This document shows positions 17,232 through 48,644 of a stretch of 64,000 nucleotides of DNA, piece after piece. The notes under the pieces are model-generated. The model was not told where the DNA came from. It did no database searches and was given only the letters and a program-made list of their open reading frames with translations. The stretch covers positions 62,001-126,000 of the forward strand of contig NZ_FOYM01000004.1 of assembly GCF_900115975.1 (NCBI RefSeq), written 5' to 3'. This DNA is from Desulfoscipio geothermicus DSM 3669. Its GTDB lineage: Bacteria; Bacillota; Desulfotomaculia; Desulfotomaculales; Desulfallaceae. Position 1 is the stretch's first letter. Every line of letters starts with the position of its first letter. Made by a program: the position numbers and the translations under genes.

Positions 17232-17290
17232 TTCATAAACTTCCCAATCTTTTCTCACAGTTTGTTCACAATTGGTGGGTAGAATATAGT
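17232..17290 (+). promoter_or_regulatory. Direct-repeat operator and promoter of the spy/two-component operon (site A)
   Basis: Hexamers lie 11 bases apart: TTCATA (17232), CCCAAT (17243, poor), CTCACA (17254), TTCACA (17265). CTCACA ends exactly 20 bases before TAGAAT (17280-17285), a plausible -10. The same layout recurs before the units at 28.4, 32.6 (minus) and 32.8 kb. The hexamer fits the TT(A/C/T)A(C/T)A boxes of PhoP-type OmpR regulators. The rest of the gap after larE shows nothing else. Confidence 0.65.
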
Positions 17291-17348
17291 TAGCACAGGG
17301 AAAATAACTAAAATTTCTGTGCAATCAGATGGGAAAGGAGGTGTAATA

Positions 17349-17815
17349 GTGAACAAGAAAATAGTGCTTTTGACCGTTACACTACTTTTGGTATTCGGTA
17401 TTGTCCAGGTGGCTGCGGCGGCCGGAATGGGCTGGGGTGGTAACGGCCCGCGTATGCTTAATAGCGATGACTGGGTCAGCCCGGTGCCTTAAATCTCACT
17501 GACCAGCAAATCGCTAAAATGCAGGAAATCAGGCAAAAAACCTACGCGCAAACCCGCGACCTGCGCATTAAGTTGATGGACAGCATGCAAGAGCTGAAGC
17601 AGCTACAGCTGCAGAAAAACCCGGACAAAGCCAAAATAGACGCCAAGATCAAGGAGATTAACGATCTGCGCGGCAAACTGTATGGCATCGCCCAGCAAAG
17701 CCGGGAGCAGTGCCAGTCTTTACTCACCCAGGAGCAGTTGGCCCAGATGGCCCAAAACAGGGGCAAATGGGGCCGCGGCTTTCGGGGAGGCTTTGGGGCC
17801 GGCAGCACCCAGTAA
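17349..17815 (+). pseudogene. Spy/CpxP-like envelope protein, frameshifted copy
   Basis: GTG behind GGAGGTG opens a frame with a signal peptide (KKIVLLTVTLLLVFGIVQ, cut after VAAAA), then GWGGNGPRMLNSDDWVSPV and a stop after 47 codons. The remaining sequence to 17815 continues the protein in another frame. Comparison with the intact copy at 48154 shows that four bases (GATG) are missing near 17486. The family (LTxxQ motif; here LTDQQ and LTQEQL) consists of helical periplasmic chaperone-like proteins; here it would be exported. It heads the two-component operon. A sequencing error cannot be excluded. Confidence 0.75.
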
Positions 17816-17835
17816 ATGATTTGTTTTGGTAACTG

Positions 17836-17873
17836 AAAAGGGAGGGACGGATTTTATGCGCCCTCCCCTTTTA
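17836..17873 (+). terminator. Hairpin between spy-like gene and response regulator
   Basis: AAAAGGGAGGG pairs with CCCTCCCCTTTT. The T-tract is part of the stem, so it may act as a partial terminator that sets the ratio of the abundant first gene to the regulator. The duplicate at 48645-48682 has the same hairpin. Confidence 0.5.
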
Positions 17874-17966
17874 ACAACGCCCATGAAGCTCAGTTCACGC
17901 CAGTAATATAAAAGTGCTACGGTTTTGCATTATCGTAAAAAGGACGGGGGTAAGGGAGGTGTAAAA

Positions 17967-18665
17967 ATGCAGGAATATGCCGGTAATATACTGGTTGTGG
18001 AAGATGAAGAACCGGTAAGGGAGCTGTTGCGGCTATACCTGGAAAAGGAAGGTTACCAAGTGGAAATAGCCGTGGATGGGGAAGAAGCCCTGCAAAAAGT
18101 GCCCAGCCGCCACCCGGACCTGATCCTTTTGGATATCATGCTGCCTAAAAAGGACGGCTGGGCAGTGTGCCGGGAAATCAGAAAACAACTTTCCATACCC
18201 ATTATTATGCTGACCGCCCGGGGAGAGGAGCTGGACCGGGTGCTGGGCCTGGAAATGGGGGCGGACGATTACATAACCAAGCCCTTTTCCCCCCGGGAAA
18301 TGGTGGCCCGGGTCAAAGCCGTGTTAAGGCGGGTGCACCAGGCGGAGGAAAAAAAAGACGCTGAGGTGATCACTTTACCAGGCCTAATCATAGATAACGC
18401 CGCCAAACAGGTGGAAATGAACGGGCAGGTTTTCTCCATGCCCCCCAAGGAGTTTGAGCTTTTGTGGTTTTTGGCCGCTAACCCGGACCGGGTTTTTACG
18501 CGGGAACAGCTGCTGCAGCAGGTTTGGGATTATGACTACCTGGGTGACCCTCGCACCGTGGACACGCATATCAAACGTTTGCGCGAAAAACTCAGCGCCC
18601 ATACGGGTAAGCGCTACATAAAAACGGTCTGGGGCCAGGGCTATAAATTTGAGGCAGGCAATTAA
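17967..18665 (+). CDS. OmpR/PhoP-type response regulator
   Basis: A 232-aa regulator. The receiver domain (residues about 5-120) has the acidic pair VVEDEE, phospho-acceptor Asp56 in LLDIMLPKKDG, the switch threonine in MLTARG and lysine in TKPFSP. The C-terminal winged helix (about 135-230) has the OmpR recognition segment DPRTVDTHIKRLREKL. The start at ATG 17967 follows GGAGGTG. It is followed without a gap by its kinase. The 11-bp direct repeats before this operon are of the type bound by such regulators, so autoregulation is likely. A receiver-truncated copy lies at 48717-49311. Confidence 0.92.
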   Translation: MQEYAGNILVVEDEEPVRELLRLYLEKEGYQVEIAVDGEEALQKVPSRHPDLILLDIMLPKKDGWAVCREIRKQLSIPIIMLTARGEELDRVLGLEMGADDYITKPFSPREMVARVKAVLRRVHQAEEKKDAEVITLPGLIIDNAAKQVEMNGQVFSMPPKEFELLWFLAANPDRVFTREQLLQQVWDYDYLGDPRTVDTHIKRLREKLSAHTGKRYIKTVWGQGYKFEAGN

Positions 18666-20438
18666 ATGTTCAAAAGTTTATTTAGCAAGCTAATGTCCAC
18701 CTACATCGCCATTATTTTAATCACCCTGCTGGTGCTGGGCCTGGCCATGTCCTACCTGTTGGGTGACTACTATTACTCTACTAAAGAGGCAGAGCTATTA
18801 AATAAAGGCCGGGAAGTGTCGCGCATTATGGCTGAAAACACCGGACAGAACCGGCCTGCCGCCGATGTAGTGGACATTTTAAACCGTTTTGGGGATAATC
18901 ACATGTCCTTAATCAACAGGGATAAGCTTTTACTGATGGCCCACAGCGAATTTTCCGGCACTTCGCGGCGTTTCTGGCTGGAACCGGTCGACGCCCAAAA
19001 GCTTCTGGATGGCCAAACCGTTTCCAGGCGGGGGTATCTCCCCCGTTTTGAACAACTGGTTATTTTTGCCGCCGTGCCTATGCTGGTAAATAACGAGGTG
19101 CAGGGAGCGCTGCTTCTGTCGGCCCCGATGGCCGATATCACCGATACCGTTGGGGCTGTGCGCCGGTTGATGTTCTTGGCCGCCCTGCCGGCCCTGTTGC
19201 TGGCGGCCCTGCTGGGTTTATTATTATCCCGTTCGGTGGCCCGGCCGCTGCGCCGGCTCAGTGAAGCCACCGTACAAATAGCGGACGGTGATTATAAACA
19301 GCGGGTGGAACTTAAGTCCGGTGATGAAATCGGCCACCTGGCGCAAAATTTCAACCGTATGGCTTTATCTCTGGAAGAGACCGTGGGCGCATTGGCCCTG
19401 GAAAAGGAGAAAATAGAAAACATTCTGGCCCACATGGCCGAAGGGGTGGTAGCTGTAGACGGCGCCAACCGGGTGATTTTACTTAACAATCGGGCGGCCC
19501 GCACCTTCGGGTTGGGGGAATCCGCAGACTTTTTAGCGCAAGCCTACGGGGAACCCGTCCCGGATAAACAGTTGCATGAATTGTTTGCCAAGGTTCTAGC
19601 ATCCGGGGAGCCGTGCAGCAGGGAATATACACCTGATGGCGGGCGGACTTATACCCTGGCCCATATTTCTCTGCTAACTGACCAGACAGGCTACAGCTTC
19701 GGTGCCGTGGGCGTGTTGCAGGATATTACCGAATTAAGGAAACTGGATCAACTGCGCCGGGACTTCGTGGCCAACGTATCCCACGAATTGCGTACTCCCC
19801 TCACTTCGGTCCAGGGTTACGTGGAAGCCATGCTGGATCGCGCCATCCCTGGCGAGGACCAAGACAAGTACCTGACCATTATCCACCGGGAAACGCTGCG
19901 CCTAAAAAAATTAATCTATGACCTGTTGGATTTATCGCGGATTGAATCGCGTAAGGAAAGATGGGATATGAACGAAATAGACGTACCGGAACTTGTGGAC
20001 CAGGTATTGGTAAAACTGCGACCGCTTATAAAAAAGCAGCAGGTAACTGTTGACAGGTATTTTCCGGACCAGTTGCCGCCAATGCTGGGCAACGAAGACC
20101 GCATTGAACAGGTGCTGGTGAACCTGCTGGACAACGCCGTAAAATTTTCATGCCCCGGCGGGAAGGTTACGGTGCGGGCGCAGGCGCAGGATGATAACAT
20201 CACGGTCAGTATCGCCGACCAGGGGCCGGGCATCCCGCCCGAAGACCTGGAACATATTTGGGAGCGCTTTCACCGGGTGGAGAAATCCCGTTCCCGGGCT
20301 TTGGGGGGTACGGGGCTGGGGCTGGCCATCGCCCGGCAAATTGTGGAGGCCCACGGCGGTAAAGTAAGCGTGCAGAGCGAAGCGGGCCAGGGGTCCACCT
20401 TTAGTTTTACTATGAAAACTGTACCGGCTGAAATATAA
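18666..20438 (+). CDS. Membrane sensor histidine kinase (PhoR/ResE type)
   Basis: A 590-aa kinase whose ATG directly follows the regulator stop. Helix 1 (residues about 10-32) and helix 2 (about 170-192) enclose an external sensing domain of about 135 residues. HAMP (about 193-245), PAS (about 255-360), HisKA with the phosphorylated histidine His373 in [10 protein letters not shown], and HATPase_c ([48 protein letters not shown]) follow. The layout is that of PhoR/ResE/VicK kinases. Neighbouring Spy-like protein and MacAB-type exporter suggest it senses envelope or antimicrobial stress. The signal is not known. Confidence 0.92.
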
Positions 20439-20483
20439 GGTTAAAGGATCATGGTAATTTTTTCAGCCAGTGGGGGGGGTAAT

Positions 20484-20702
20484 ATGCACCACTCGATTAC
20501 GGGTTTTAACCTGGGAAATTGGTTGTGGCCCATCATGATTATCGGTATCGTTGGTTTGGTTTACCTGGTGGCCAAATGTGGTAAGCAAGATCTTTCCACC
20601 CTTGACGAGGAGGAAATAGCGGCTGAACAATGCCCCAACCTGTACGCGGAGCTGATTCAGCTTAGGGAAGAAGTGCAGCGGCTAAAGGGTAAATCGCCAT
20701 AG
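20484..20702 (+). CDS. Small membrane protein with coiled tail
   Basis: About 72 aa. After a short N-terminus (MHHSITGFNLGN) comes one membrane helix (WLWPIMIIGIVGLVYLVAKC), then an acidic cytoplasmic tail ending in a likely helical segment LYAELIQLREEVQRLKG. A run of G before ATG 20484 is the probable ribosome-binding site; an upstream ATG at 20451 has none. It sits between the sensor kinase and the exporter genes. It resembles small accessory membrane proteins of stress operons. I do not recognise a family. Confidence 0.6.
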   Translation: MHHSITGFNLGNWLWPIMIIGIVGLVYLVAKCGKQDLSTLDEEEIAAEQCPNLYAELIQLREEVQRLKGKSP

Positions 20703-20841
20703 AAGCCACAGGTAACAGGAAATAAAATGCACCGGGTAGCCTTTGGTAAGCAAAAAAGATGGCCACACTAGACAGACGGGTTGCTATTGTGAAATTTTGC
20801 AAAATAACAAGTCCACTACAGAAAAAATACTAGAGAAGGTG

Positions 20842-21381
20842 ATGATAAGTTTGCGCCTTAAAAAAGTCATATTCTTGCTCATTAGCCTGCTTGTTTTTGT
20901 ACTGCTTCAGGGCTGTAATTCAGGAAGCAATGATACCGCCAATGCCCCCGCGCAAAGCTCCGGCCAGTCCTCCCAAAATGTAACCCGGTGGGGTGGTCCG
21001 GAAAGGCCGGCGGATTTATGGGGCCAGGTCAAGACCATTCGGGGCAACAAACTGACTGTTTTTAAAGTGGAAAACAACATTGCTCAAACGGAGGAAGAAA
21101 GGGAAGCGCTGCGGGGTCAAATGCAGTCTTTAAGCCCTGAGGAAAGGGCCCAGGCCCGGGCGGAGCGGATTAAGGTGAGTGACGAAACGGTGGACATTAT
21201 CATCCCGGTGGGCGTGCCGGTGATCGCCACCGGTAATTTTGGCGGGGAAGCCGCGGAAGTGGACATTTCCCAAATTAAACAGGGCGACATAGTTAAATTC
21301 TGGCTGGAAGAGGAACCTTCTGGCGAGGGGGAGTCAATGGCTGAATTTGTGCAAATTAATCAAGGCGGCTATGGTCAGTAG
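20842..21381 (+). CDS. Putative lipoprotein of the envelope operon
   Basis: About 180 aa. The N-terminus LRLKKVIFLLISLLVF ends in a lipobox VLLQGC, so it should be a lipid-anchored surface protein. A Ser/Asn/Ala-rich linker follows, then a domain with VKTIRGNKLTVFKVENN and SPEERAQARAERI. The latter is an LTxxQ-like stretch, and the domain has OB-like strands thereafter. TTG 20851 is an alternative start with a better-spaced AAGGTGATG site. Its place before the ABC exporter genes suggests a role in substrate handling or sensing. No family name can be given. Confidence 0.6.
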   Translation: MISLRLKKVIFLLISLLVFVLLQGCNSGSNDTANAPAQSSGQSSQNVTRWGGPERPADLWGQVKTIRGNKLTVFKVENNIAQTEEEREALRGQMQSLSPEERAQARAERIKVSDETVDIIIPVGVPVIATGNFGGEAAEVDISQIKQGDIVKFWLEEEPSGEGESMAEFVQINQGGYGQ

Positions 21382-21399
21382 CTTTATGGGGGCTAATTT

Positions 21400-22098
21400 A
21401 TGATTGTGATGCGAGATATCGTCAAAATATATAAAAACGGCCTGCTGGAATTAAAGGCCCTGGATCAGGTCAGCTTAACGGTGTCCAAAGGGGAATTTGT
21501 CGCCATCACAGGCACCTCCGGATCGGGTAAATCCACTCTGATGCACATCATGGGCTGTCTCGACCGGCCCAATGCCGGGGAATATTTCCTGGACGGGGAA
21601 GATGTACTGGCCTGCCCCGAACAAAAGCTGGCCGCCGTGCGCAACTGCAAAATAGGATTTGTGTTTCAAAAGTTTAATTTACTGCCCAAGCTGGACGCCC
21701 AGACCAACGTGGAAATCCCGCTAATTTACCGGGGCGAGGATAGGAGCGTTTCCCGGGAGCGGGCCGCCCGGCTCCTGGAAATGGTGGGCCTGGGCGACCG
21801 GCTGCGCCACCGGCCCAACGAACTGTCCGGAGGCCAGCAGCAGCGGGTGGCCATCGCCCGGGCGCTAATCGGCGATCCCCCTTTGATTTTAGCCGACGAA
21901 CCCACGGGGAACCTGGACTCCCGCTCGGGGGCGGAAATCATGGAACTGTTTAAACAACTGAACAACCAGGGGCGTACCTTGGTTTTAATCACCCATGACC
22001 AGGACATTGCCCGGCAGGCCAACCGGATTATTTACCTGCAGGACGGCCGGGTGATACCGGCCTCCGGGGGTACTGCAGCGAAAAGAGAGGTGAGTTGA
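21400..22098 (+). CDS. MacB/LolD-type ABC transporter ATPase
   Basis: A 232-aa nucleotide-binding subunit. Walker A is GTSGSGKST (residues about 38-46), the Q-loop lies in GFVFQKFNLLP, the signature is LSGGQQQRVAIARAL, Walker B is LILADEPTGNLD, and the switch histidine is in LITHD. It belongs to the MacB/LolD/FtsE subfamily that drives mechanotransmission rather than ordinary transport. It is followed two bases later by the MacA-like gene and then by the permease, forming an ABC type VII exporter. Confidence 0.92.
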   Translation: MIVMRDIVKIYKNGLLELKALDQVSLTVSKGEFVAITGTSGSGKSTLMHIMGCLDRPNAGEYFLDGEDVLACPEQKLAAVRNCKIGFVFQKFNLLPKLDAQTNVEIPLIYRGEDRSVSRERAARLLEMVGLGDRLRHRPNELSGGQQQRVAIARALIGDPPLILADEPTGNLDSRSGAEIMELFKQLNNQGRTLVLITHDQDIARQANRIIYLQDGRVIPASGGTAAKREVS

Positions 22099-22099
22099 C

Positions 22100-23314
22100 T
22101 TGAGTCTACCGGAAAAGCTGACTGGCTTAAAAAATAAAAAAACATTTCTAATCATAGCAGCGGCTTTGTGTCTTTCCATTGCCCTTGGCCTGTATTCTTT
22201 TGCGGTCGGCCGCGGTGGGGAAGCGGTGGCCGAAGAAATAAAGGAAGTAACGGTAAAAAAGGGGGAGCTGAAAATTGACCTGGCCGCGGACGGTAAAGCC
22301 GAACTGGACACGGTGGGGCTGAATTTTCAAATTAATGGAGTAATTAAGGAAATCTCCGTCCAACCGGGTGATCAAGTTAAGGCCGGGGATATCATTGCCC
22401 GGCTGGACGCGGAAAAATACCAGCTGGAGTTGGAAGCCGCCCGGGCGGGTTACGAAGCGGCCCGGGCCAAGCTGGCTAAAGCCAAAGATGATTATAACAA
22501 TAAACTGATCGCGGCCAAGGAAAAAATGGACAACGCCATGCTGGTCTACCAGCCCATGAGCGAAGTGCCCGACATTTTCCCGGCGCAGGAAGTGGCTTTA
22601 AAAAAACTGGCCGCGGACAGCGCCCGGGAGGCCTATGAAGCGGCCAAGCGGGCCACTTCAGATATCCAAATGGAAGAAGCCGCTGTGGCCCAGGCCCTGG
22701 TTAACCTGAAAAAGGCGGAAAAGAACCTGGAGGATACTGTGTTAAGAGCCCCGGTGAACGGTACAGTGCTCTACATTGCCAATAAGGTGGGGGAAACCGT
22801 GTCCGGCGGAGGGGATAATGCGGACAAACAATTTGCCGTGGTGTCCACCGGCGATGCCGTGACGGTTATTTCCCAGGTCCTGGAGCTGGATATTGCCGAG
22901 GTGACACTGGGCCAGGCGGCGGAGGTGGAGTTTGAAGCCCTGCCGGGTGAGACATTTTCTGGTAAAGTTGGCGGTATTGAAGCATTGCCTGTTTCAGACC
23001 CTAGCGGCATTGTCGCGTATGAGGTCAGTATACTGCTTGATCAGCCCGACGCCCGGATTAAAAACGGCATGACGGGGGCCGTGTCCTTGATCATTGAACA
23101 AAAGAAAGATGTATTAATTATTCCCAACGCAGCGGTGAAAAGGGTGGACGGCGCGGCAGTGGTGGAAATGTATAACGAGGCCGGTGAAATTGTGACCCGA
23201 AAGGTTAAGACGGGCTTTACCGATGGCAGTAACGTGGAAGTGATTGACGGCTTGCAGCAGGGAGATAAAGTGGTCATCCGGACCAGGCCCGCCGGCCAGG
23301 GGGGTAAGGTGTGA
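22100..23314 (+). CDS. MacA-like periplasmic adaptor (HlyD/RND-MFP family)
   Basis: About 404 aa with TTG start. An N-terminal membrane anchor (residues about 15-33) is followed by a first half-lipoyl motif (EISVQPGDQVKAGDIIARLD). Next come an alpha-helical hairpin of about 100 residues rich in Ala, Lys and Glu, the second half (VLRAPVNGTVLYIANKVGETV), and beta-barrel and membrane-proximal domains. Such adaptors link a MacB permease to an outer channel in Gram-negatives; in Firmicutes they act in antimicrobial peptide export or resistance. The end overlaps the macB-like start by four bases. Confidence 0.88.
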   Translation: MSLPEKLTGLKNKKTFLIIAAALCLSIALGLYSFAVGRGGEAVAEEIKEVTVKKGELKIDLAADGKAELDTVGLNFQINGVIKEISVQPGDQVKAGDIIARLDAEKYQLELEAARAGYEAARAKLAKAKDDYNNKLIAAKEKMDNAMLVYQPMSEVPDIFPAQEVALKKLAADSAREAYEAAKRATSDIQMEEAAVAQALVNLKKAEKNLEDTVLRAPVNGTVLYIANKVGETVSGGGDNADKQFAVVSTGDAVTVISQVLELDIAEVTLGQAAEVEFEALPGETFSGKVGGIEALPVSDPSGIVAYEVSILLDQPDARIKNGMTGAVSLIIEQKKDVLIIPNAAVKRVDGAAVVEMYNEAGEIVTRKVKTGFTDGSNVEVIDGLQQGDKVVIRTRPAGQGGKV

Positions 23315-24504
23315 AATACAGTGAACTGATTAAAATGGTCTTTGTAAACATCTACGCCAATAAATTCCGGGCCTTTCTCACCGCCCTGGGCATTATTGTG
23401 GGCGCGGCTACCATTTTGCTGGTGGTGGCCGTGGGCAAGGGCGGCGAGGCCTCGGTGGCGGAGCAGTTTGCCAAACTTAACGCCGGCACCATTTATGTCA
23501 TGTCCGCCCGGGGGAGCGATATGTACAGAAAGCCCTTAACCACCACCGATGTGGAGGCCATCAAAGAAAAAGCGCCCTCGGTGGAAATGGTCACCATAGC
23601 TATTAATGGCAAGGTTGAAGCTAGTTATAACGACATCACTTTTCAGGGCGATGCGATCGGCGCCTTTCCCGAATACCAGGCCCTGAGCAACCTGAAACTG
23701 CAAGCGGGCGCGTTCATCAGCGATGAAGACAATGAGCAAAGAAACCGGGTGGCCGTGCTGGGGGCGGAACTGGCCGAAGAGTTGTTCGGCGGTGATGCGG
23801 CGGCCGCCGTGGGCAGTACCGTCAAAATCGACCGGCGCAACTTCCAGGTTATCGGGGTGCTGGAGCGGCTGGGGGACGCCACGGGCGGCGTCAATACCGA
23901 TGAAAGTGCTATTGTGCCGTACGTGGTGGCGGAAAAATATATCCTAGGCGCCAACGTGTACCCCCGCATGATCGCCCTGGCCAGGGATTTGGAAAGCGTG
24001 CCCTCGGCCATGCGGGAAATTGCCGGGGTGCTCCGGGAAACGCACCGTATCCGCGGGCAGGATGACTTTATGATCAGGGATGCCGGCAGCCGCCTGGCCG
24101 CGGCCCAGGATACGGCCCGCACCATGTCCGTACTGCTGGTCATCGTAGCCACTATAGTGCTGATCGTGGGCGGCATCGGCATCATGAACGTCATGTTTGT
24201 CTCAGTCAAGGAGCGCACCAGGGAGATCGGCATCTTAAAGGCCATCGGGGCCAGGAAAACCGATATCCTGCTCCAGTTTTTGCTGGAGGCGGTAATCATC
24301 AGCCTGGCCGGAGGGGTGATTGGGGTGGCCCTGGGCGCGCTGGTGGTCCCCCTGATGCAGTATTTTGATTTGCAGGCTATGCCGACTCCGCTGGGTGGAA
24401 TTTTGGGGCTGGTTTTCTCCGTGTTCACGGGCACTTTTTTCGGCTATTACCCGGCCCTGAAAGCCGCGGGCTTAAGCCCGCTGGAGGCATTGAGTCACGA
24501 ATAA
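23311..24504 (+). CDS. MacB-like permease (FtsX fold)
   Basis: A 397-aa membrane subunit. Helix 1 lies near residues 15-40 (FRAFLTALGIIVGAATILL), an extracellular MacB core domain covers about 45-260, and three helices follow with the FtsX signature ([25 protein letters not shown]), ending SPLEALSHE. GTG start overlaps the adaptor stop. With the ATPase and adaptor it forms a MacAB-type exporter for peptides or lipophilic toxins. Two fragments of this gene are present in the condensed duplicate at 49.3 kb. Confidence 0.9.
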   Translation: MKYSELIKMVFVNIYANKFRAFLTALGIIVGAATILLVVAVGKGGEASVAEQFAKLNAGTIYVMSARGSDMYRKPLTTTDVEAIKEKAPSVEMVTIAINGKVEASYNDITFQGDAIGAFPEYQALSNLKLQAGAFISDEDNEQRNRVAVLGAELAEELFGGDAAAAVGSTVKIDRRNFQVIGVLERLGDATGGVNTDESAIVPYVVAEKYILGANVYPRMIALARDLESVPSAMREIAGVLRETHRIRGQDDFMIRDAGSRLAAAQDTARTMSVLLVIVATIVLIVGGIGIMNVMFVSVKERTREIGILKAIGARKTDILLQFLLEAVIISLAGGVIGVALGALVVPLMQYFDLQAMPTPLGGILGLVFSVFTGTFFGYYPALKAAGLSPLEALSHE

Positions 24505-24512
24505 CGCGAATA

Positions 24513-24586
24513 AAGGTGCCTGTCTGGCACTCCTTAATTTCGACAAAAAACGGATATTAAAAATTATTGTCGGTGCCAGGCATCAA
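24513..24586. repeat. GGTGCCTG/CAGGCATC inverted repeat
   Basis: GGTGCCTGtctGGCAC at the left end and GTGCCAGGCATC at the right end can pair around an AT-rich centre. A shortened relative follows the macB fragment at 49520-49550, so the element was copied with the operon. Confidence 0.55.
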
Positions 24587-24611
24587 TAATCTACATGGGA
24601 GGCGGGGTTAG

Positions 24612-25775
24612 TTGTTAAAAAAATTGCTGCTTGCGATTTTAATTGTCAGCTTTACGTTCAGTGGGCTGCAGCCTGCGTTGGCCAGGGAACCCGCGCGGCC
24701 CGAGCTTACCCTGAACGAGGCCATAGAAAAGGCGATTAAGCACAGCGAAGTGGTCAAAAAAGCTGATTTGGAAATAGATCGCACCGAAGCGCTTAGGGAT
24801 GAGGCGTCTGATCAGCTGGATTTTATCCCCACCGTCGGAGATGTGGTCTATTATGATCCGCAGTTTGAAATTGCCTGGGCCTCCTTGCTGCAGGCGGACC
24901 TGACCTGGCGCATGTCTAAAAAAAGTTACGACGCCCGGCTGGACGGCATCGCCCTGGATACCTACCAGCTGTACTGGAATGTTTTAAAGGCCCGGGAAAG
25001 TGTAGAAGTAAAAGAAATTGTTCTTGAGCAAGCCCGCCTGGAACTGCAGCAATCCCGGGCGGCCTACCAGCATGGAATTGTGGCCAAGTTCGGCCAAGGT
25101 AACTCAGCCGGAACAACCATGATGGCGCTGGATCAGGCCGAGGCGGCGATGGATAAAGCGGAAAGCGACCTGGCGGCGGCGCAAAATGAACTGGATCACG
25201 CTTACACGGAATTTAACCAGTTGGTGGGGCTGTGGCCCGAGGACCGGCCGGTGTTGGTGGACGAACTGGAATTTCACCCGCTGGAGGTAACCAACCTGGA
25301 CACCGAGGTTAACCGCGCTCTGGAGAACAGCCCGTCCGTGTGGCTGGCCGAGCAGGGGGTGCAGCTTCAGGAATATATTAACGACCTGGCGTGGGCCAAG
25401 GGGCAGTATACCCCCTACGATGCCCGGGAGGCGGAATTGGAGCAGGCCGAACTGGACGCCCAAAGCGCCAAAGATGCCACCCGCCTCCTGGTGCGAGACC
25501 TGTACTATACCCTGAAAAACCTGGAGGAATCTTATAAGTCTGCGGAAAAGGGAGTGACCAGGGCCGAGGAGGAACTAAAAACCAAAGAGTTGATGTACCA
25601 GGCCGGGGTTGCCGGCAAACTTGATGTGGCAGCCGCAGAGGTTGCCTTGGCCGAGGCGGAGCAACTGCTGAAAGAACTAGCCGCCCAGCACGCCTACACC
25701 AAGCTGCTATTCCAGAAGCCCTGGGCGCCCGCCTACAGCACGCTGGGCGGTACGAGCGGGTCTTCAGGTAAGTAA
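24612..25775 (+). CDS. TolC-family coiled-coil protein
   Basis: A 387-aa exported protein. A signal peptide (LLLAILIVSFTFSGLQPALA) is followed by the TolC-family opening LTLNEAIEKAIKHS. Long alpha-helical coiled segments rich in Glu and Ala follow, including the paired repeat regions around LYWNVLKARESVEVKE and DLYYTLKNLEESYKSAE. TolC proteins form outer-membrane ducts. In an organism that looks Gram-positive, the family member must either sit on the outer side of the cell membrane or act as a shorter scaffold. TTG start follows GGAGGCGGGG. It completes a MacA-MacB-TolC set. Confidence 0.75.
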   Translation: MLKKLLLAILIVSFTFSGLQPALAREPARPELTLNEAIEKAIKHSEVVKKADLEIDRTEALRDEASDQLDFIPTVGDVVYYDPQFEIAWASLLQADLTWRMSKKSYDARLDGIALDTYQLYWNVLKARESVEVKEIVLEQARLELQQSRAAYQHGIVAKFGQGNSAGTTMMALDQAEAAMDKAESDLAAAQNELDHAYTEFNQLVGLWPEDRPVLVDELEFHPLEVTNLDTEVNRALENSPSVWLAEQGVQLQEYINDLAWAKGQYTPYDAREAELEQAELDAQSAKDATRLLVRDLYYTLKNLEESYKSAEKGVTRAEEELKTKELMYQAGVAGKLDVAAAEVALAEAEQLLKELAAQHAYTKLLFQKPWAPAYSTLGGTSGSSGK

Positions 25776-25821
25776 TATCGTAAGTATATTTAAATAATTA
25801 AGGGAACATCGTGGAGTGGAG

Positions 25822-26780: not shown

Positions 26781-26878
26781 TGCTGGGTTTTTACCTGAGC
26801 ATGATTTCAGACCTGCGTTAAAGTGAGGCAATTTTATGGACCGGGCCATTAGCTTGCAGTTAAAAGGAAGGTTCGCGC

Positions 26879-27328
26879 GTGTTCCGGATTTTCCTGGTTG
26901 AAGATGAGATAAATTTAAATCAAATATTAACTTGCTATTTAAAAAAAGAAGGCTGGGAAGTACGGTCCTTTACCAATGGGCAATCTGCGCTGCAAGCCAT
27001 TGAAAAGCACCCGCACCTCTGGATTTTAGATATTATACTTCCTGATATTGACGGCTACCAGCTGCTGTGCAGTATCAAAGAGGCGTCCCCGGACATTCCC
27101 GTTATTTTTATGTCCGCCCGGGATGCCGATTTGGATCGCATCATGGGCCTGGAGATGGGAAGTGATGACTACCTGGCAAAACCATTTTTACCCCGGGAAC
27201 TTGTTACTTGCACACACCGTCTCCTGGAACGGGTTTACAAATCAACTGAGGCAAAAAAACCATTTATTAATCCGGATTGTCCCTATATTCCAGATGAAGA
27301 TAAGCGTATAGCCCATAAAGAAGGTTAA
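26879..27328 (+). CDS. Response regulator cut off before its DNA-binding domain
   Basis: 149 aa starting with GTG after AAGGAAGG. The receiver is complete: VEDE, phospho-acceptor Asp51 in ILDIILPDIDGY, MSARD and AKPFLPREL. The sequence YIPDEDKRIAHKEG, which normally opens the winged-helix domain, is followed at once by a stop and by the start of an htrA remnant. An OmpR-type output domain and a partner kinase have therefore been lost, probably by one deletion. The protein could still be phosphorylated and act as a phosphate sink, but cannot bind DNA in the usual way. Confidence 0.7.
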   Translation: MFRIFLVEDEINLNQILTCYLKKEGWEVRSFTNGQSALQAIEKHPHLWILDIILPDIDGYQLLCSIKEASPDIPVIFMSARDADLDRIMGLEMGSDDYLAKPFLPRELVTCTHRLLERVYKSTEAKKPFINPDCPYIPDEDKRIAHKEG

Positions 27329-27329
27329 T

Positions 27330-28114
27330 ATGAAAAATTTAACTGATTTCAGGCGCAAACTGCTTTTTATTGCCCTGACTGCCTTTGTGGCGGGGGTGAT
27401 GTTTGCCGGGGGATGCCTTTTGGTGAACGACTTGAGCCCGGGCAACAGGCGCCTCGGATTTGGGATTGATCACCGCCAGCGCCACCGGACTCCCACCAGG
27501 TACAGGAACTGAAACCGTGGCCAACACGGTGGAGAAAGTCGGGTCGGCGGTGGTAAAAATTGATACCGTAAGCACCAGCGGAGGGGTGGACCCTTTTTTT
27601 AACGACCCTTTCTTTAGGCAATTTTTTGGCGGCCCCTACGGGTACAGGACCCAGCCGCGGGAACAACAAGGCCTGGGTTCCGGCTTTATTATTTCTGAAG
27701 ATGGATATATTTTAACCAACGAACACGTCATTGACGGGGCGACCAAAATAACCGTGACCATAGAAGGAATGGACAGCCCGCTGCCGGCGAAGGTGGTGGG
27801 GTCGGATTACAATTTGGATTTGGCGGTGCTCAAAGTGGATGCCGGGCGAACCCTGCCGTATCTTAAATTGGGGGATTCATCCAAGGTAGAGGTGGGCAAC
27901 TGGGTAATCGCCATCGGCAACCCGTTCGGGCTGGACCATACCGTAACCGTCGGCGTAATCAGCGCCAAGGGACGCCCGGTGCAGGTAGAAAACCGCAGCT
28001 ACAAGAACCTGCTGCAAACCGACGCCTCGAATCGGCCAAAAGGTGGACATTGTTCTCTATCGCGGCAATCAGCAGCGATCCTTATCCATAACAGTAACGG
28101 AACAACCAAATTAG
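27330..28114 (+). pseudogene. HtrA/DegP-like serine protease, broken
   Basis: Three reading frames carry consecutive parts of one HtrA. The first (from ATG 27330) gives the membrane anchor (LLFIALTAFVAGVMF). A shift near 27450 leads to the protease domain, with histidine in TNEHVIDGA and aspartate in NLDLAVLKV, up to LLQTDAS. There the sequence jumps directly to the end of a PDZ domain (IGQKVDIVLYRGNQQRSLS, then ITVTEQPN and stop) in the third frame. The GNSGG catalytic serine and most of the PDZ domain are deleted. The product cannot be a protease. Confidence 0.8.
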
Positions 28115-28188
28115 GCCGGGTAAAACTGCCTTTGGGATTTCTTCCATTGGTAGTTTGCAGTTTAAACCGATTTAGTGTAAAAGGCAAA

Positions 28189-28234
28189 AAACAAATGCCA
28201 AGCTACTTTGCGTTAACTGGCATTTGTTTTTTTT
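28189..28234 (+). terminator. Terminator after the htrA remnant
   Basis: A twelve-base-pair stem AAACAAATGCCA/TGGCATTTGTTT is followed by an eight-base T-tract. Confidence 0.85.
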
Positions 28235-28289
28235 ATTCATAAATTGTTCATGTGTAAAAAATTCTTTTGGAGGAACTTGCCTGAAATAA

Positions 28290-28343
28290 TTCATAAAAAT
28301 GTCAACATTTATTCACAGTTTGCTCAAATTTAAGGGATAAAAT
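28290..28343 (+). promoter_or_regulatory. Direct-repeat operator and promoter (site B)
   Basis: Four in-phase hexamers 11 bases apart: TTCATA (28290), GTCAAC (28301), TTCACA (28312), CTCAAA (28323). TTCACA ends exactly 20 bases before TAAAAT (28338-28343), the probable -10. The layout matches site A, including the TTCATA at the upstream end. Confidence 0.7.
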
Positions 28344-28391
28344 CAGGAAAAGAAGAACCATAAACTGCACTATTAACAGGGAGGGGTAATA

Positions 28392-28760
28392 ATGCCTGGG
28401 AAAAATACGGCCATGCTCATTGAAGACGATGAGTTGCTGCAGGCAGTGATTAGCGTCGGCCTGGAAGCGGAAGGGTTTTATGTGATCATGGCCTCGAATG
28501 CCGAAGAGGCGGAAAAATTTTTATTAGAAATAAAACCGGATCTGATTGTATTAGATCGAGCATTGAGTGATATAAACAGCATTCGAGAGCATTGCCGTAA
28601 AATATTTAAACGCTGGGAAATACCAATCATAGCCATTGGTGGTGCTGAAAATGTGAACCTGGAAAAGCCTCTCGATGATAAGATAGCTAAAACATATGAT
28701 TTTAACGGTGACAAAAGCGGCCTGGACGATTTAATGAATAGAGTCCGATTTGCAATCTAA
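28392..28760 (+). CDS. Receiver-only protein with degenerate phosphorylation site region
   Basis: A 122-aa single receiver domain. The acidic pair (LIEDDE) and a central aspartate (LIVLDRALSD) are present, but the switch threonine/serine position reads IAIGG and the conserved KP lysine motif is not clear (LEKPLDDK lies too early). Such atypical receivers often work without phosphorylation or serve as adaptors. The gene stands alone behind the TTCACA-type promoter, so it probably belongs to the regulon of the 18-kb two-component system. GGGAGGGG precedes the ATG. Confidence 0.65.
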   Translation: MPGKNTAMLIEDDELLQAVISVGLEAEGFYVIMASNAEEAEKFLLEIKPDLIVLDRALSDINSIREHCRKIFKRWEIPIIAIGGAENVNLEKPLDDKIAKTYDFNGDKSGLDDLMNRVRFAI

Positions 28761-28826
28761 TTTTTAACAAGCGTGGTATAACCGGGTTGGCTCTATGGGT
28801 AAGGATCAAGAACAGTGCCGATTAAA

Positions 28827-29049
28827 AAAGCCGAGTGGTGGTACCTTCCGCTCACTGACTCGGCCTTATAATTGTATGAGCCTACTTTAGCTCCGGGCGG
28901 CTGCATAACTCGGCCCTTCGGGCCTCAAACAGATTCGCCGCTTATCCTCCGCCTCGTTCGCTCTTTTAAGGAGAGGGGACACACCTCTTCGAGGAATGTC
29001 CCCAATTTATGGCTTCGTATGTTCGCTCCAGGTACCACCACTCGGCTTT
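28827..29049. mobile_element. MITE-like element with 20-bp terminal inverted repeats
   Basis: AAAGCCGAGTGGTGGTACCT (28827-28846) recurs as a perfect inverted copy at 29030-29049. Between them are about 183 bases with no gene, further short hairpins (CGGGCGGC, CGGCCCTTCGGGCC) and the GGGGACA...TGTCCCC palindrome listed separately. No transposase is inside. No target-site duplication is obvious. The element fills most of the 415-base gap between the receiver gene and the ccdA terminator. Confidence 0.5.
28975..29003. repeat. GGGGACACACCT...AGGAATGTCCCC palindrome, copy 1
   Basis: The arms GGGGACACACCTC and GAGGAATGTCCCC enclose only three to five bases. The same arms occur at 35825-35855, 45113-45246 and 47159-47212, with differing centres. 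Confidence 0.65.
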
Positions 29050-29072
29050 GACTGCAATTAAGTATACTTTAA

Positions 29073-29117
29073 CAATAAAAAAGTCCGTTTCAGAGTGGCT
29101 ACCCCGGAACGGACTTC
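29073..29117 (-). terminator. Terminator of the rhodanese-CcdA operon
   Basis: On the minus strand AAGTCCGTT pairs with AACGGACTT and is followed by TTTTTTATTG. It ends the operon that finishes with ccdA. Confidence 0.8.
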
Positions 29118-29175
29118 TTGGCGTCATAACGGCGGGGGCATGTTTATCTTGTGCTCCCGTAATTTTTGTCAAGCT

Positions 29176-29847
29176 TTAGCTAATGGTACTATATAACAAA
29201 TAGAATCCTAATCCTACCAGCGCCAGGCCGCTTATCTTTTGTATCACCTCGCTAACCCGGGCGAATTTGGATGCGTTTTTAAGTACCGAGGTGAAGGTGC
29301 CCGCCGCCAGTAAAGGGATGCTGCGCCCAATGGCATATACAAACAGGAGGATAAAACCGTTAAATACATTACCCTTGGTGGCGGCATAAGCCAGTACCGT
29401 GGCTGTGACCGGAGTGGTGCAGGGAGAGGCAATTATGGCAAAGGGAATACCCAGCAGGAATGCCCCTAACACTCCGCTGCTCCGCTTAATGCCGGGCAGA
29501 TTTACAGAATAACTTGGTAGCGTAAACAAGCCAAGCATGTTGGCGCCCATCAGTACCGCCACAAAAGCAGCTATGTACCAGACAACACTGCTGCCTAAAA
29601 ACATCTTACCGGCCAGGGAAACAAAGGCACCGGCAGCGGCCAGGGTAAGGGAAAGCCCCAACACAAAAGATAAAGATAATATAAACCCTTTTAACCGGGA
29701 GCGGTTGTCGTGTCCTCCCACATAGGCCACCACCATTACCACTGTGGGCAAAGTGCAGGGGCTCAATCCACTAACCAATCCGGCGGCCAAAACGGCCAGC
29801 AGTGAAAAACCCAATGAGCCGGCTAATAGTGCATCCACTGATGGCAT
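29176..29847 (-). CDS. ccdA: CcdA/DsbD-type transmembrane thiol-electron transporter
   Basis: A 223-aa protein with six predicted helices. The segments AGLVSGLSPCTLPTVVMVVAY and IIASPCTTPVTATVLAYAA carry the paired PC motifs whose cysteines relay electrons across the membrane in CcdA/DsbD. It receives electrons from cytoplasmic thioredoxin and reduces an external thiol protein. The adjoining thioredoxin-like gene, five bases upstream, would be that partner. Neighbouring rhodaneses suggest a system for external sulfane sulfur or disulfide handling. Confidence 0.85.
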   Translation of the reverse strand: MPSVDALLAGSLGFSLLAVLAAGLVSGLSPCTLPTVVMVVAYVGGHDNRSRLKGFILSLSFVLGLSLTLAAAGAFVSLAGKMFLGSSVVWYIAAFVAVLMGANMLGLFTLPSYSVNLPGIKRSSGVLGAFLLGIPFAIIASPCTTPVTATVLAYAATKGNVFNGFILLFVYAIGRSIPLLAAGTFTSVLKNASKFARVSEVIQKISGLALVGLGFYLLYSTIS

Positions 29848-29851
29848 GTAC

Positions 29852-30397
29852 TTAATTCACCACCTGTTCTATAGCCTGGCTTACTTCTTCTTGATTCAAT
29901 TCTCCAATCCAGCTTTTAATCACCTTGCGGTTGTTATCCAACAATACTACGGCGGGAACGGAATTGACATTTAATTCTTCAGCAACTTCCATTAATTTAT
30001 CGTGTTCCAGTTGATCATATATGGCAATATCAATCCAGGCAAAACTAACTTTTTCCCCGTATTTCTTTTCAATCTCCTGGGTAGTTGCCCGGTGTTCGTC
30101 GAAAAATTTCTTGGTATCCGGGCAGCAATCCGCATCATACGTTAGTATCACTGCTACGGGTTTCCCTGTGGCGAAACTGTTATCCAGCAGTTGAGTCAGG
30201 GTGACTGCACCGGTATCCGCTGCAACGCCAGGAGTTGGTGTATCTTGCCCTGGAACTTCTTGGGCCGTAACAGCTGACTGCTCTGAATCAACATCGACCC
30301 GGTCTTCTTAATTTGTCCACAGCGGTTTGGTTCCTATGACTATGAAGGCTAATATAATCAATCCGAATATAATTGTTTTTGCATTGGGCTTGTGCAT
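29852..30397 (-). pseudogene. Membrane-anchored thioredoxin-like protein interrupted by one in-frame stop
   Basis: ATG 30397 sits behind a perfect AGGAGGT site and opens HKPNAKTIIFGLIILAF, a membrane anchor. Codon 30 is TAA (30310-30308). The same frame then continues without fault through a linker and a thioredoxin fold ending in QAIEQVVN. A single change, for example CAA to TAA, explains it. The active-site region reads DADCCPDT, so only the first cysteine of a CxxC remains. GTG 30151 starts the open downstream part but has no ribosome-binding site. Partner of CcdA by context. Sequencing error or readthrough cannot be excluded. Confidence 0.7.
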
Positions 30398-30484
30398 TTT
30401 GACCTCCTATCTTCGTTAACACTGTGTATATGATTAAAGGTTATTTCGCATCTGTCTCAAGATAGATTAGTACGATGGTAATTA

Positions 30485-30787
30485 TCAGTGTATTTGTATG
30501 GCTAAAACTACAAGCCTGGTAATGGCGGTAATCTTACGCTCCTTATTCGCCGGTACCATGATCAATATACCCTCTTGCATATCTTGTTTTTCTCCCTCCA
30601 TTTCCAGCAGGCCCTTTCCTTCCACAGTGTAAAATATTAGATCAGAGGCCATTATACAGGGTGGAACTGATTGGCCCGGTTCAAAACAGATTAACAGTCC
30701 TTTGGTTTTGGGTAGATCAAACAAAACCTTTTTTACCTGCTCCCGGCCTGAGAATTCAATTAAATTTTTTATATTCAAAACTGACAT
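30485..30787 (-). CDS. Small cupin-domain protein
   Basis: About 100 aa forming one cupin barrel. The second motif region reads EGKGLLEMEGEKQDMQEGILIMVPANKERKI. The metal-binding histidines of the classic cupin motif 1 are not evident, so it may bind a ligand without metal. ATG 30787 follows GAGGTG at good distance. It sits in the rhodanese-thioredoxin operon; a sensor or small-molecule binding role is possible. The family call is sure, the function is not. Confidence 0.75.
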   Translation of the reverse strand: MSVLNIKNLIEFSGREQVKKVLFDLPKTKGLLICFEPGQSVPPCIMASDLIFYTVEGKGLLEMEGEKQDMQEGILIMVPANKERKITAITRLVVLAIQIH

Positions 30788-30836
30788 TCTAGACACCTCA
30801 TTTCCTTGAAATAGGTATGCTTTTCTAACCTAATCG

Positions 30837-31538
30837 TTAGCTATCTCCCGCGACTAAATCATATCCAGCACGCACCCAATCAATTTTTCCACCGGCCAGG
30901 TTATATACATTTCGATACTCAGTCCCCAATAATAATTTTGCAACCATGTAGCTTTTGTTGCCCGTTTCACAGGTTAGCACAATGGTATCGGATTTATTTA
31001 TTCCCAGTGAATCCAGGTATTGTTCCGGCTGCGTCCGCATCAACCGTAAATCTCCAAGCAATGAACCTTCAATATGCCCCTCCTGATATTCACCCGGGGT
31101 GCTAATGTCAATAATGACCAGATTTGTTGATGAAGCGATCATTTCATTTAAGTCACGGGCGCTGATTTCCTTAACCCCGGTGCTATCTTTTGGGGTAACA
31201 GCTTGATCGGAACTACTTTGTTGGGAAGAGGATAGGTCGGTATTCTCTTGTTGTTCAGATGAAATGGGTGTTTGCATCTGGTTGTTCTCAATGACATTGT
31301 TTGATTTTATACTACCGGCGGTTGGTTCCGAATTAATTGGTTCTTCGTCAACACCGTTAGTATGTGGTAGGTTTTCTTCCGCGTAGGCATTATTTATTTC
31401 CTCTTGCTGTTCAGGCGACACGGAAACAACCGGTGTTTGATCATGATTGCTTTCATTGCTTGGCAAGCAACCCACTGAGCTTATTGACAAAATTAATATG
31501 AGGAAAAGTACGGCACATAGATTTTTAAGCGCAGTCAT
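30837..31538 (-). CDS. Rhodanese-domain lipoprotein
   Basis: A 233-aa protein. The signal sequence LCAVLFLILILSISSVGC ends in a lipobox, so the protein is lipid-anchored outside the membrane. A long Ser/Gln/Asn-rich linker (residues about 25-130) leads to a rhodanese domain (about 135-233) with the active-site cysteine in VLTCETGNKS. Rhodaneses carry persulfide sulfur. The unusual linker probably lets the domain reach away from the membrane. It shares the operon with a second rhodanese, MauE/DoxX, thioredoxin and CcdA. Confidence 0.85.
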   Translation of the reverse strand: MTALKNLCAVLFLILILSISSVGCLPSNESNHDQTPVVSVSPEQQEEINNAYAEENLPHTNGVDEEPINSEPTAGSIKSNNVIENNQMQTPISSEQQENTDLSSSQQSSSDQAVTPKDSTGVKEISARDLNEMIASSTNLVIIDISTPGEYQEGHIEGSLLGDLRLMRTQPEQYLDSLGINKSDTIVLTCETGNKSYMVAKLLLGTEYRNVYNLAGGKIDWVRAGYDLVAGDS

Positions 31539-31553
31539 AAAAAGTGACTCCTT

Positions 31554-32012
31554 TCAGGACTTGTTTTTACCGGTAAGTGCTGCCAACGGGGTCAGTTTAA
31601 CCCGGTCAAAGTAAAGTAGAAAAAGGGCTCCTGCCAGCATGGCTAAATCTTCAAAGATAGCCAAAAAGCCCACCGTTCTTTCCACCCCGCTAAAACAACC
31701 GCAATCAACGTCCAGGCCGCGAACGGCGCTGATTATTAAAATGATTATAAACATAGTTAGCAACCCGGCTATGGCCAGCGAACCTCCTTTGGTGTTAAAC
31801 CCCAGCAGCAAACAAATTCCGGCCAGGGTTTCAATCCAGGGAATGGCTACCGCCACCGGGCCGATCAGTTCATCAGGCAAGAGTTTATAATTGTACATAG
31901 AGGCGGCAAAATCCAAAGGAGCAATGATTTTGCCAAGGCCTGCATAGAGAAACAACCCGCCCATGATCAGCCTGACCGCCAATTGAAAATAATCATTATG
32001 TAAAAGTTTCAT
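31554..32012 (-). CDS. MauE/DoxX-family membrane protein
   Basis: A 152-aa protein with four helices, beginning QLAVRLIMGGLFLYAGLGKI, the typical MauE/DoxX opening. A DCGCFSG motif between helices 3 and 4 supplies a vicinal cysteine pair. MauE proteins support disulfide formation in other proteins, and DoxX relatives take part in thiosulfate oxidation. Its stop and start interlock with the second rhodanese gene (one-base overlap at 32012). The context suggests quinone- or thioredoxin-linked thiol redox work. Confidence 0.8.
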   Translation of the reverse strand: MKLLHNDYFQLAVRLIMGGLFLYAGLGKIIAPLDFAASMYNYKLLPDELIGPVAVAIPWIETLAGICLLLGFNTKGGSLAIAGLLTMFIIILIISAVRGLDVDCGCFSGVERTVGFLAIFEDLAMLAGALFLLYFDRVKLTPLAALTGKNKS

Positions 32013-32590
32013 CAGCTTATATCACCTCCATTAGGATTAGACACTGGGTAACCCGCGTCCAACCAGCCGGGATAACCCTCACCCAACACGTACACATTGG
32101 TATAGCCGCGTTCCACCAGTTCTTTGGCCATTTCCACCCCCACATCGCATTCCCCGCCGCTGCAATAGGTTACAATAACGGCGTTATGGTCGGGTATGGC
32201 TTCTTCCAGCACCACTTCCCCTTTCACTACCGACATCAGGGATATGCCAATAGAGCCGGTGATAGTCCCTGCCGCATGTTCTTCAGGGCTTCTGGCGTCT
32301 AGAAAAATAGCCTGCCGTTCATCAAACAGTTTCTTGGCGGAAATTAGGTCGATAAACCTTATATCGGTGCTTAATTGCTCCGCCTTTGCTTTGAGATCAG
32401 CAAGCTGCTTTTGTTGAATTTCGGCCAGTAGTTCACCGCCAAGTGATTTTACTACCAATGGATAGTTAAATGTCCAGCCCAGTAAACATGCCAGCACGAC
32501 TAAAAATAAGCACTGTTTTAGGGCCGTACCGGCTAGATTTTTCTTCGGCGTCATCTCCCTGCCATCCCCTTGGTTATTTCCAGTATTCAT
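32012..32590 (-). CDS. Membrane-anchored rhodanese
   Basis: 192 aa. One N-terminal helix (residues about 20-42, LFLVVLACLLGWTFNYPLVV) anchors the protein, followed by a short helical linker and a rhodanese domain with active-site cysteine in TYCSGGECDVG and the closing GYPGWLDAGYPV. The catalytic loop has the six-residue length of sulfur-transferring rhodaneses. It is the first gene of the minus-strand operon and is controlled from the bidirectional TTCACA region. Its active site should face outside if the positive-inside rule holds. Confidence 0.85.
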   Translation of the reverse strand: MNTGNNQGDGREMTPKKNLAGTALKQCLFLVVLACLLGWTFNYPLVVKSLGGELLAEIQQKQLADLKAKAEQLSTDIRFIDLISAKKLFDERQAIFLDARSPEEHAAGTITGSIGISLMSVVKGEVVLEEAIPDHNAVIVTYCSGGECDVGVEMAKELVERGYTNVYVLGEGYPGWLDAGYPVSNPNGGDIS

Positions 32591-32630
32591 TTCAATTAGT
32601 ACCCCCCTTCCAGTTCCTGCATATTATTAT

Positions 32631-32679
32631 AGCTACTATTTGGGGCTATTTTGTGAAAAAAGTTTGAACATCCTGTGAA
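32631..32679 (-). promoter_or_regulatory. Direct-repeat operator and promoter of the rhodanese operon (site D)
   Basis: Read on the minus strand: TTCACA (32679-32674), TTCAAA (32668-32663), TTCACA (32657-32652), each 11 bases apart. After exactly 20 bases comes a perfect TATAAT (32631-32626 continuing the minus strand). The layout is the same as at sites A, B and C. Confidence 0.7.
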
Positions 32680-32699
32680 CAGGTAAAGTTCCGGATTTA

Positions 32700-32742
32700 T
32701 TCACAGTTCATTCACAGAACAGTAAAAAATACCTTATATAAT
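32700..32742 (+). promoter_or_regulatory. Direct-repeat operator and promoter of the second spy-like gene (site C)
   Basis: Two perfect TTCACA boxes (32700-32705 and 32711-32716) are 11 bases apart. TATAAT (32737-32742) begins exactly 20 bases after the second. Together with site D this makes a divergent control region with two opposed arrays only 20 bases apart. Confidence 0.75.
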
Positions 32743-32811
32743 AAAAAGCGTAAGAGCCCGGCGGGATAGCCCACAGAACAGTTTTTTAAGTTAAGGAGGG
32801 AATTGATACAA

Positions 32812-44661: not shown

Positions 44662-44740
44662 CAAAAAAGCTCCTACCAAACCCGTTAAAGGTGGTAGGAG
44701 CTATTAGCTTTGCAGCGTTAAGCGAGCTCCATCGCTGTAA
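44662..44740 (-). ncRNA. Fluoride (crcB-motif) riboswitch with terminator, controlling XRE-HAD unit
   Basis: The minus strand reads GCGATGGAGCTCGC, then TTAACGCTGC, then AAAGCTAATAGCTCCTACC. This is the fluoride aptamer pattern with its GATGG...TCGC first hairpin and the conserved GCTAAT...CTCCTACC end. The last arm AGCTCCTACC can instead pair with GGTAGGAGCT to form a terminator stem (44702-44668) followed by TTTTTT. Fluoride binding would free the aptamer side and allow read-through, as in the known ON-switches. It lies about 70 bases before the XRE start. Confidence 0.85.
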
Positions 44741-47967: not shown

Positions 47968-47985
47968 ATTACCCCAAAAATAACC

Positions 47986-48062: not shown

Positions 48063-48153
48063 ATGCAATGCACAGGCAATAATATTTTTTTAAAGGCCCC
48101 AAACATAAAACCAATTTACTAAGGAGGAATCAGATGGGAAAGGAGGTGTAATA

Positions 48154-48624: not shown

Positions 48625-48644
48625 ATGATTTGTTTTGGTAACTG

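Follow-up and report, generated by a model that had tools for sequence, protein, structure and literature searches.

Promoter arrays A to D and the genes behind them

We analyzed 64,000 nucleotides of the Desulfoscipio geothermicus DSM 3669 genome (the window; contig NZ_FOYM01000004.1, positions 62,001 to 126,000). The window contains four promoters, sites A to D, that share one layout of four same-direction hexamers with an 11-bp period. The hexamer slots end 42, 31, 20, and 9 bp 5' of a -10-like hexamer. The sites are listed here in window coordinates, with the hexamers in the order of the slots from 42 to 9.

Site A, 17232-17285, + strand. TTCATA (17232), CCCAAT (17243), CTCACA (17254), and TTCACA (17265); -10 TAGAAT at 17280-17285.
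Site B, 28290-28343, + strand. TTCATA, GTCAAC, TTCACA, and CTCAAA; -10 TAAAAT at 28338-28343.
Site C, 32689-32742, + strand. TTCCGG, TTCACA, TTCACA, and GTAAAA; -10 TATAAT at 32737-32742.
Site D, 32679-32626, - strand. TTCACA, TTCAAA, TTCACA, and GCCCCA; -10 TATAAT at 32631-32626.

A position check found the four sites where the first-pass annotation had put them. As it had claimed, all four have a box whose end is exactly 20 bp from the -10-like hexamer. This box is the third slot and is CTCACA in A and TTCACA in B, C, and D. The pair of boxes described with it gave way to the array of four slots, and site C starts at 32689, not 32700, since the array has four slots. The shared promoter layout is confirmed and is stricter than first read. 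The strongest slots are 20 and 9 in A and B, 31 and 20 in C, and 42, 31, and 20 in D. Weak slots exist, for example slot 31 of A and slot 9 of D. In A, B, and C the main pair is YTCACAGTTYRYTCAMA.

The arrays have the form of an OmpR/PhoB-type tandem direct-repeat operator, with at least two same-direction half-sites at an 11-bp period. The hexamer 17 bp 5' of the -10 is ACAGTT in A and B, ACAGAA in C, and ACAAAA in D, none of which is a canonical -35. The repeats overlap this noncanonical -35, whose position is taken from the 17-bp spacer. Being direct repeats, the boxes do not form a CRP/FNR-type palindrome, and this reading was rejected. Between C and D they look inverted because two divergent arrays lie 9 bp apart. 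The spy -10, TGGGTAGAAT, looks by eye like the consensus GGnnAnAnT. No -35 fitting a sporulation or stress sigma factor was seen, and C and D carry plain TATAAT. An extra TTCATA-N5-TTCATG pair lies 5' of site B at 28236-28252, out of exact 11-bp phase with B.

The following genes lie behind the sites (ORF, open reading frame).

17349-17815, + strand. Spy-like gene, first of the A unit; frameshifted, being 4 bases shorter than the intact copy (48154-48624).
17967-18665, + strand. OmpR/PhoB-family response regulator (PF00072 and PF00486); the proposed binder of A to D.
18666-20438, + strand. Histidine kinase with HAMP, PAS, HisKA, and HATPase domains.
20743-21381, + strand. Lipoprotein-like ORF with no Pfam match; the true start is probably further in.
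21400-22098, + strand. MacB-type ABC ATPase; best NCBIfam match MacB, below cutoff.
22100-23314, + strand. MacA/HlyD-type adaptor; RND_mfp above cutoff, MacA below.
23311-24504, + strand. MacB-type permease; best NCBIfam match MacB, below cutoff.
24612-25775, + strand. TolC-like OEP protein (PF02321).
28392-28760, + strand. Receiver-only protein, 3' of B (PF00072); 30% identical to the receiver of 17967-18665.
29176-32590, - strand. D unit: rhodanese, MauE/DoxX, rhodanese lipoprotein, cupin, thioredoxin-like, and CcdA/DsbD-like genes.
32803-33279, + strand. Intact spy-like paralogue, 3' of C; PF13801 above cutoff, with GTG 32812 as the probable start.

PF13801 matched the ORF fragment 17519-17815 of the first spy-like gene with 25.3 bits, under the cutoff of 29.2. 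The 20743-21381 ORF is 23% identical over 209 amino acids (aa) to a lipoprotein of a related genome (G007) that has its own four-slot site. The D unit is not certain to be one transcript, because a 334-bp gap precedes the thioredoxin-like gene.

The intact spy copy at 48154-48624, almost identical to the frameshifted copy behind A, belongs to a partial duplicate of the A unit at 48100-49520. The duplicate contains the intact spy, a regulator without its first 32 residues (92% identical), and a macB remnant. It does not contain site A. It lies directly behind a fluoride riboswitch (47978-48040) and a terminator-like hairpin, and its spy may be fluoride controlled. Fluoride riboswitches (Rfam RF01734) are present at 44688-44745 (- strand) and 47978-48040 (+ strand), within 3.4 kb.

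Enrichment, conservation, and co-occurrence of the arrays

The bare pair TTCAYA-N5-TTCAYA, offered by the first-pass annotation as the pattern for a genome scan, proved unexceptional when taken alone. It has 51 matches genome-wide at ≤1 mismatch, compared with 66 for the reversed control. Five of the 51 are in the window, where 0.9 would be expected from its length. Because the bare pair is not enriched, the claim of a common operator rests on the whole array. The four-slot pattern gave 4 matches in the window at ≤3 mismatches, compared with 0.02 expected from 100 shuffles, and site B matches it with 0 mismatches. In the whole genome it gave 13 matches at ≤3 mismatches and the control gave 5. 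At ≤2 mismatches the six matches are A to D, a site on contig C27 (C27:6390-6443), and one within an ORF. The pattern was designed after the window sites, C27, the family spy promoters, and five relatives' loci had been seen. Its counts in the window, own genome, and family are descriptive, and the fixed-pattern test is confined to the 97 genomes outside the family.

An independent matrix was built from eight sites of other genomes, picked for clear TTCACA pairs, a choice that favors our reading. Four of the eight are spy promoters (L052, L053, L056, and L058) from 15 spy upstream regions, the other 11 being left out. The remaining four are from three of the five relatives' loci scanned. The matrix ranked A (55.7), D (43.8), C (39.0), and B (37.4) highest in the window. 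Rank 5 scored 5.0, which leaves a gap of >30 bits below rank 4. Thirty column-permuted matrices scored at most 19.4 in the window. Sites A to D were still at the top with the hexamers and -10 only (at least 31.8; next, 18.5) and with the -10 removed (at least 28.6; next, 8.6). In 119 kb of the own genome elsewhere, around regulators and box matches, the best score was that of the C27 site (33.6), followed by 12.1. A matrix of the four spy-type sites alone placed A, B, and D at the top and C at rank 8. A matrix of the other four placed C, D, and B at the top, with A tied at rank 6. These rankings suggest two subclasses: A and B are of a spy type, C represents the other, and D is near to both.

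Among 16 genomes of the family, the array is conserved together with the regulator. Spy-like proteins are encoded in 15 of the 16. An orthologue of the 17967-18665 regulator (81-84% identical) is present in the window genome and five others. Four-slot matches at ≤1 mismatch were found in six of six genomes with the orthologue and in none of the 10 without (Fisher p 1.2e-4). At ≤2 mismatches there were 22 matches in the 16 genomes and 4 in the control. Near-perfect counterparts of site A precede spy in G003, G005, G008, and G012, and in the first three the order continues as spy-regulator-kinase. The spy promoters of A and these four genomes have 0 to 1 mismatch in slots 20 and 9, compared with 2 to 6 in genomes without the orthologue (the L057 anchor was corrected by eye to TTCATA/TTCATA with an 8-bp gap, and the L060 anchor is doubtful). 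G007 has a further site before a lipoprotein gene, and G008 has one before genes for a secreted protein, a lipoprotein, and MacAB-type proteins (genes assigned by eye). The regulator-kinase pair of G007 and G012 comes after VTC/CotH genes (L133 and L134), with a four-slot site before that unit. VTC was identified by Pfam in G007, and CotH in both. These neighbors are an unexpected tie to polyphosphate- or coat-type proteins.

The fixed pattern was then taken to 113 genomes of the order. At ≤1 mismatch it gave 34 matches in 24 genomes, compared with 3 for the reversed control. Outside the family, matches were present in 14 of 44 genomes with the regulator and in 4 of 53 without (p 0.0024). Presence was defined as a match at E ≤ 1e-80, with up to 25 candidates scored per genome. 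With an identity cutoff of 60% instead, the counts were 13/32 and 5/65 (p 0.0002). Five genomes have the site directly 5' of the regulator, namely G063, G065 (a broken copy), G066, G080, and G109. The site precedes a spy-regulator unit in G045 and an HtrA-regulator unit in G111. MacB-type permeases lie behind the regulator-kinase pair in G066, G080, and G109, the last also with an OEP/TolC-like gene. Other genes behind arrays encode an HtrA-type protein (G093), Spy (G112), a DUF2680 protein (G080), and a beta-lactamase-fold protein (G099; identical in G100 and 82% identical in G101). In G033 the array precedes a PMT-like glycosyltransferase and an HlyD-type adaptor. Several matches, such as those in G078 and G096, have no telling neighbor.

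G063, from another family, contains site A before the regulator (81% identical) and a divergent C/D pair 9 kb on, between spy and rhodanese-MauE genes. The C/D slot and -10 bases are identical between the window and G063 in 52 of 60 positions, compared with 94 of 147 elsewhere (p 0.0007). The G063 spy is 89% identical to that of 32803-33279. Its D-type site is followed by rhodanese, MauE/DoxX, and lipoprotein genes, and no thioredoxin- or CcdA-like ORF was seen by eye in the next 1.6 kb (ORFs of at least 45 aa). The rhodanese that is first in the D unit went unmatched (E ≤ 1e-8) in all 15 other family genomes, which suggests that the C/D cluster was likely shared horizontally. The first-pass annotation had proposed an envelope/thiol-stress regulon. 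The envelope part is supported, with Spy, HtrA, and MacAB/TolC genes near sites. The thiol part comes from site D and is weak.

The probable cognate regulator and competing readings

The 17967-18665 regulator is the sole full-length regulator of its kind in the window. The other similar genes found by a similarity search are two truncated copies (26879-27328 and 48718-49311) and the receiver-only gene that starts at 28392. The regulator's PF00072 and PF00486 domains place it in the OmpR/PhoB family. It is above no curated cutoff among the NCBIfam matches listed (25 of 104), which include YycF, PhoB, MtrA, BaeR, and CpxR. The kinase is below the curated cutoff for all matches listed (25 of 94). 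For WalR(YycF) and WalK the scores are 268 bits (cutoff, 340) for the regulator and 425 (cutoff, 725) for the kinase. The best PDB match of the regulator is RegX3, and a BaeR structure is second. The recognition-helix segment RTVDTH[IV]KRLREKL is common to the window regulator and six orthologues of at least 80% identity. The regulator tree included L186, which was translated in the wrong frame.

We consider it likely that one activator of the OmpR/PhoB family, most likely the autoregulated 17967-18665 protein, uses A to D as its operators and runs an envelope-stress regulon. The regulon claim is well supported by the sequence comparisons. This protein had been put forward as the probable cognate regulator, and the six-of-six co-occurrence in the family and the sites directly 5' of the regulator elsewhere agree with that. 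The analysis shows the arrays, that they are conserved, and that they occur with the regulator; we infer binding, activation, and the signal as follows. An envelope signal would lead the kinase to phosphorylate the regulator, as the domains suggest. Up to four protomers may bind head to tail on the 11-bp repeats, on one helix face. The array would cover the -35 place, and by analogy with work on PhoB/PhoP the downstream protomers could hold RNA polymerase on the -10. The protomer row would thus replace the -35 contact. Since the A unit contains the regulator, the system is probably positively autoregulated. The predicted outputs are Spy-like chaperones, a MacAB/TolC-type pump, the receiver-only protein, and a rhodanese/MauE (perhaps thioredoxin/CcdA) unit. 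They point to envelope damage as the signal theme.

Several findings weigh against this reading. The receiver-only gene of B has no clear orthologue in the family genomes, which leaves B with no orthologous site, and its inclusion would draw on its own sequence only. Outside the family, 30 of the 44 regulator-positive genomes lack a match at ≤1 mismatch. The E ≤ 1e-80 cutoff may admit paralogues (56-81% identity). Relatedness among the genomes, as in the identical proteins of G099 and G100, means that the p values assume more independence than there is. Within the family, relaxing the limit to ≤2 mismatches gives eight matches in genomes without the orthologue, one or two in each of 6 of the 10, and three of these eight lie behind the kinase gene of a second paralogous system. 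In G007, which has the orthologue, the spy promoter has decayed to 4 mismatches, and that of the second spy of G003 has 5. Finally, contig C27 has a regulator of its own, 50-53% identical, with a kinase-like ORF, and these are followed by an array with 0 mismatches to the pattern and a PMT/YkcB-like glycosyltransferase gene. The recognition-helix segment of this paralogue is nearly the same, RTVDTHIKKLRQKL. The boxes alone therefore do not name the regulator.

The second paralogous system was observed in G006, G010, and G011 (L170, L173, and L174). It consists of another kinase-like gene, then ATCAWA-N5-ATCACA-N9-TAAAAT, then a gene for a small secreted protein. It has the same kind of promoter.

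The C27 regulator might bind A to D mainly, or both regulators might, in a cross-talking network and not a dedicated regulon. The perfect C27 site before a YkcB/PMT-like gene favors this, as do three of the four genomes outside the family that have a match and no 17967-type regulator. These three (G095, G096, and G097) have C27-like sites, judged by eye, and in the fourth (G036) the match is within an ORF. A C27-type regulator is near the site in G095 (82% identical to C27) and G097 (84%), and G033 has a C27-like site before its PMT-like gene. Co-occurrence and adjacency, however, track the 17967 orthologue, and spy promoters are mostly poorer where that orthologue is absent. We consider this reading unlikely. 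Operators of this type seem to serve two or more systems in the cell. Of the single regulon under one regulator that was first proposed, the shared operator type stands and control by that regulator alone is uncertain, as the C27 system has a matching site. How two paralogous regulators that seem to use nearly the same boxes stay apart in one cell is a question that this raises.

The sites could also share ancestry only, with A and C as duplicated spy promoters, B and D as chance or derived sites, and RNA polymerase acting with no regulator. A and C do both precede spy paralogues, and several family genomes without the orthologue retain the TGGG(T/C)A-type -10 of the spy promoter alongside poor boxes, which also counts against a dedicated regulator. 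The slots and their phase, however, are common to sites before unrelated genes (rhodanese, HtrA, VTC/CotH, and regulator), A and C resemble different site classes, and there is no canonical -35. We regard this explanation as very improbable. The arrays resemble PHO boxes of the phosphate regulon, which are direct repeats of 11 nucleotides with the conserved motif GTTCACC in Streptomyces coelicolor (PMC4415409). PhoB sites also overlap the -35 (PMC3348028), and the kinase here has a HAMP-PAS layout. The differences from PhoB/PhoP of Escherichia coli and S. coelicolor are the hexamer (TTCACA, not CTGTCAT), the four slots, and the envelope, not phosphate, genes downstream. In this genome pstS, pstC, and pstA adjoin a regulator on contig C48 and pstB adjoins one on C68 (pst genes above curated cutoffs), whereas no pst or other phosphate gene was seen among the window ORFs looked at around and downstream of A to D. 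The window regulator scores 263 bits with the PhoB model TIGR02154, under its cutoff of 296. Gene linkage and curated model scores led us to reject the phosphate regulon, to which we give almost no weight. The boxes had been called PhoP type; the PhoP/PhoB-like operator architecture is upheld, and the regulator is not the phosphate PhoP.

Comparison with known systems

BaeSR and CpxAR of E. coli are two-component systems that control spy and efflux genes, through boxes that differ from the arrays here. The presumed outputs (Spy and efflux) and the second-ranked PDB match to BaeR are alike. A Spy-type chaperone, efflux genes, and the system's own regulator lie behind the sites by promoter position only. 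The window regulator is far under the cutoffs for BaeR (239 bits; cutoff, 380) and CpxR (191; cutoff, 341), and the BaeS and CpxA models are also below cutoff for the kinase. By its presumed outputs the system would work like BaeSR/CpxAR, and we do not class it as a member.

Four-box promoters of Bacillus subtilis PhoP have boxes at about -22 to -60. PhoP of Mycobacterium tuberculosis, as a tandem dimer, binds TCACAGC direct repeats separated by a 4-bp spacer, and three or four motifs are bound with higher affinity than two (PMC4832192). The main pair in three of the sites (A, B, and C) resembles these repeats. The lineage is another one, and the comparison covered the repeats. SARP activators, which have an OmpR-type DNA-binding domain, also use direct repeats, with the 3' copy 8 bp from the -10 (PMC10936776).

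Little work seems to exist on how spore-forming sulfate reducers control envelope-stress responses. An open-literature search, with subscription papers outside its scope, found no title describing it among those listed. The four-slot rule can serve to search for members, and it specifically predicts the binding regulator. A wider picture, which we consider doubtful, is that Desulfotomaculum-type bacteria evolved their own Bae/Cpx-like envelope-stress regulon on four-slot arrays, covering Spy, HtrA, and MacAB/TolC and, in some lineages, sulfur-carrier/disulfide genes. In this genome it would have a self-limiting arm, in which the regulator turns on the receiver-only protein behind site B and that protein draws phosphate off the kinase. 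A paralogous system on the same boxes would couple it to cell-surface glycosylation.

CssRS of B. subtilis is a Gram-positive two-component system that controls HtrA. HtrA-type genes lie behind arrays in G093 and G111, whereas the paralogues that we take to be CssR-like here (26879-27328 and one on contig C82) are other genes. In the window, 26879-28242 contains a truncated CssR-like receiver and then a truncated HtrA. Contig C82 (L037) encodes a full-length regulator similar to 26879-27328, together with a kinase-like ORF.

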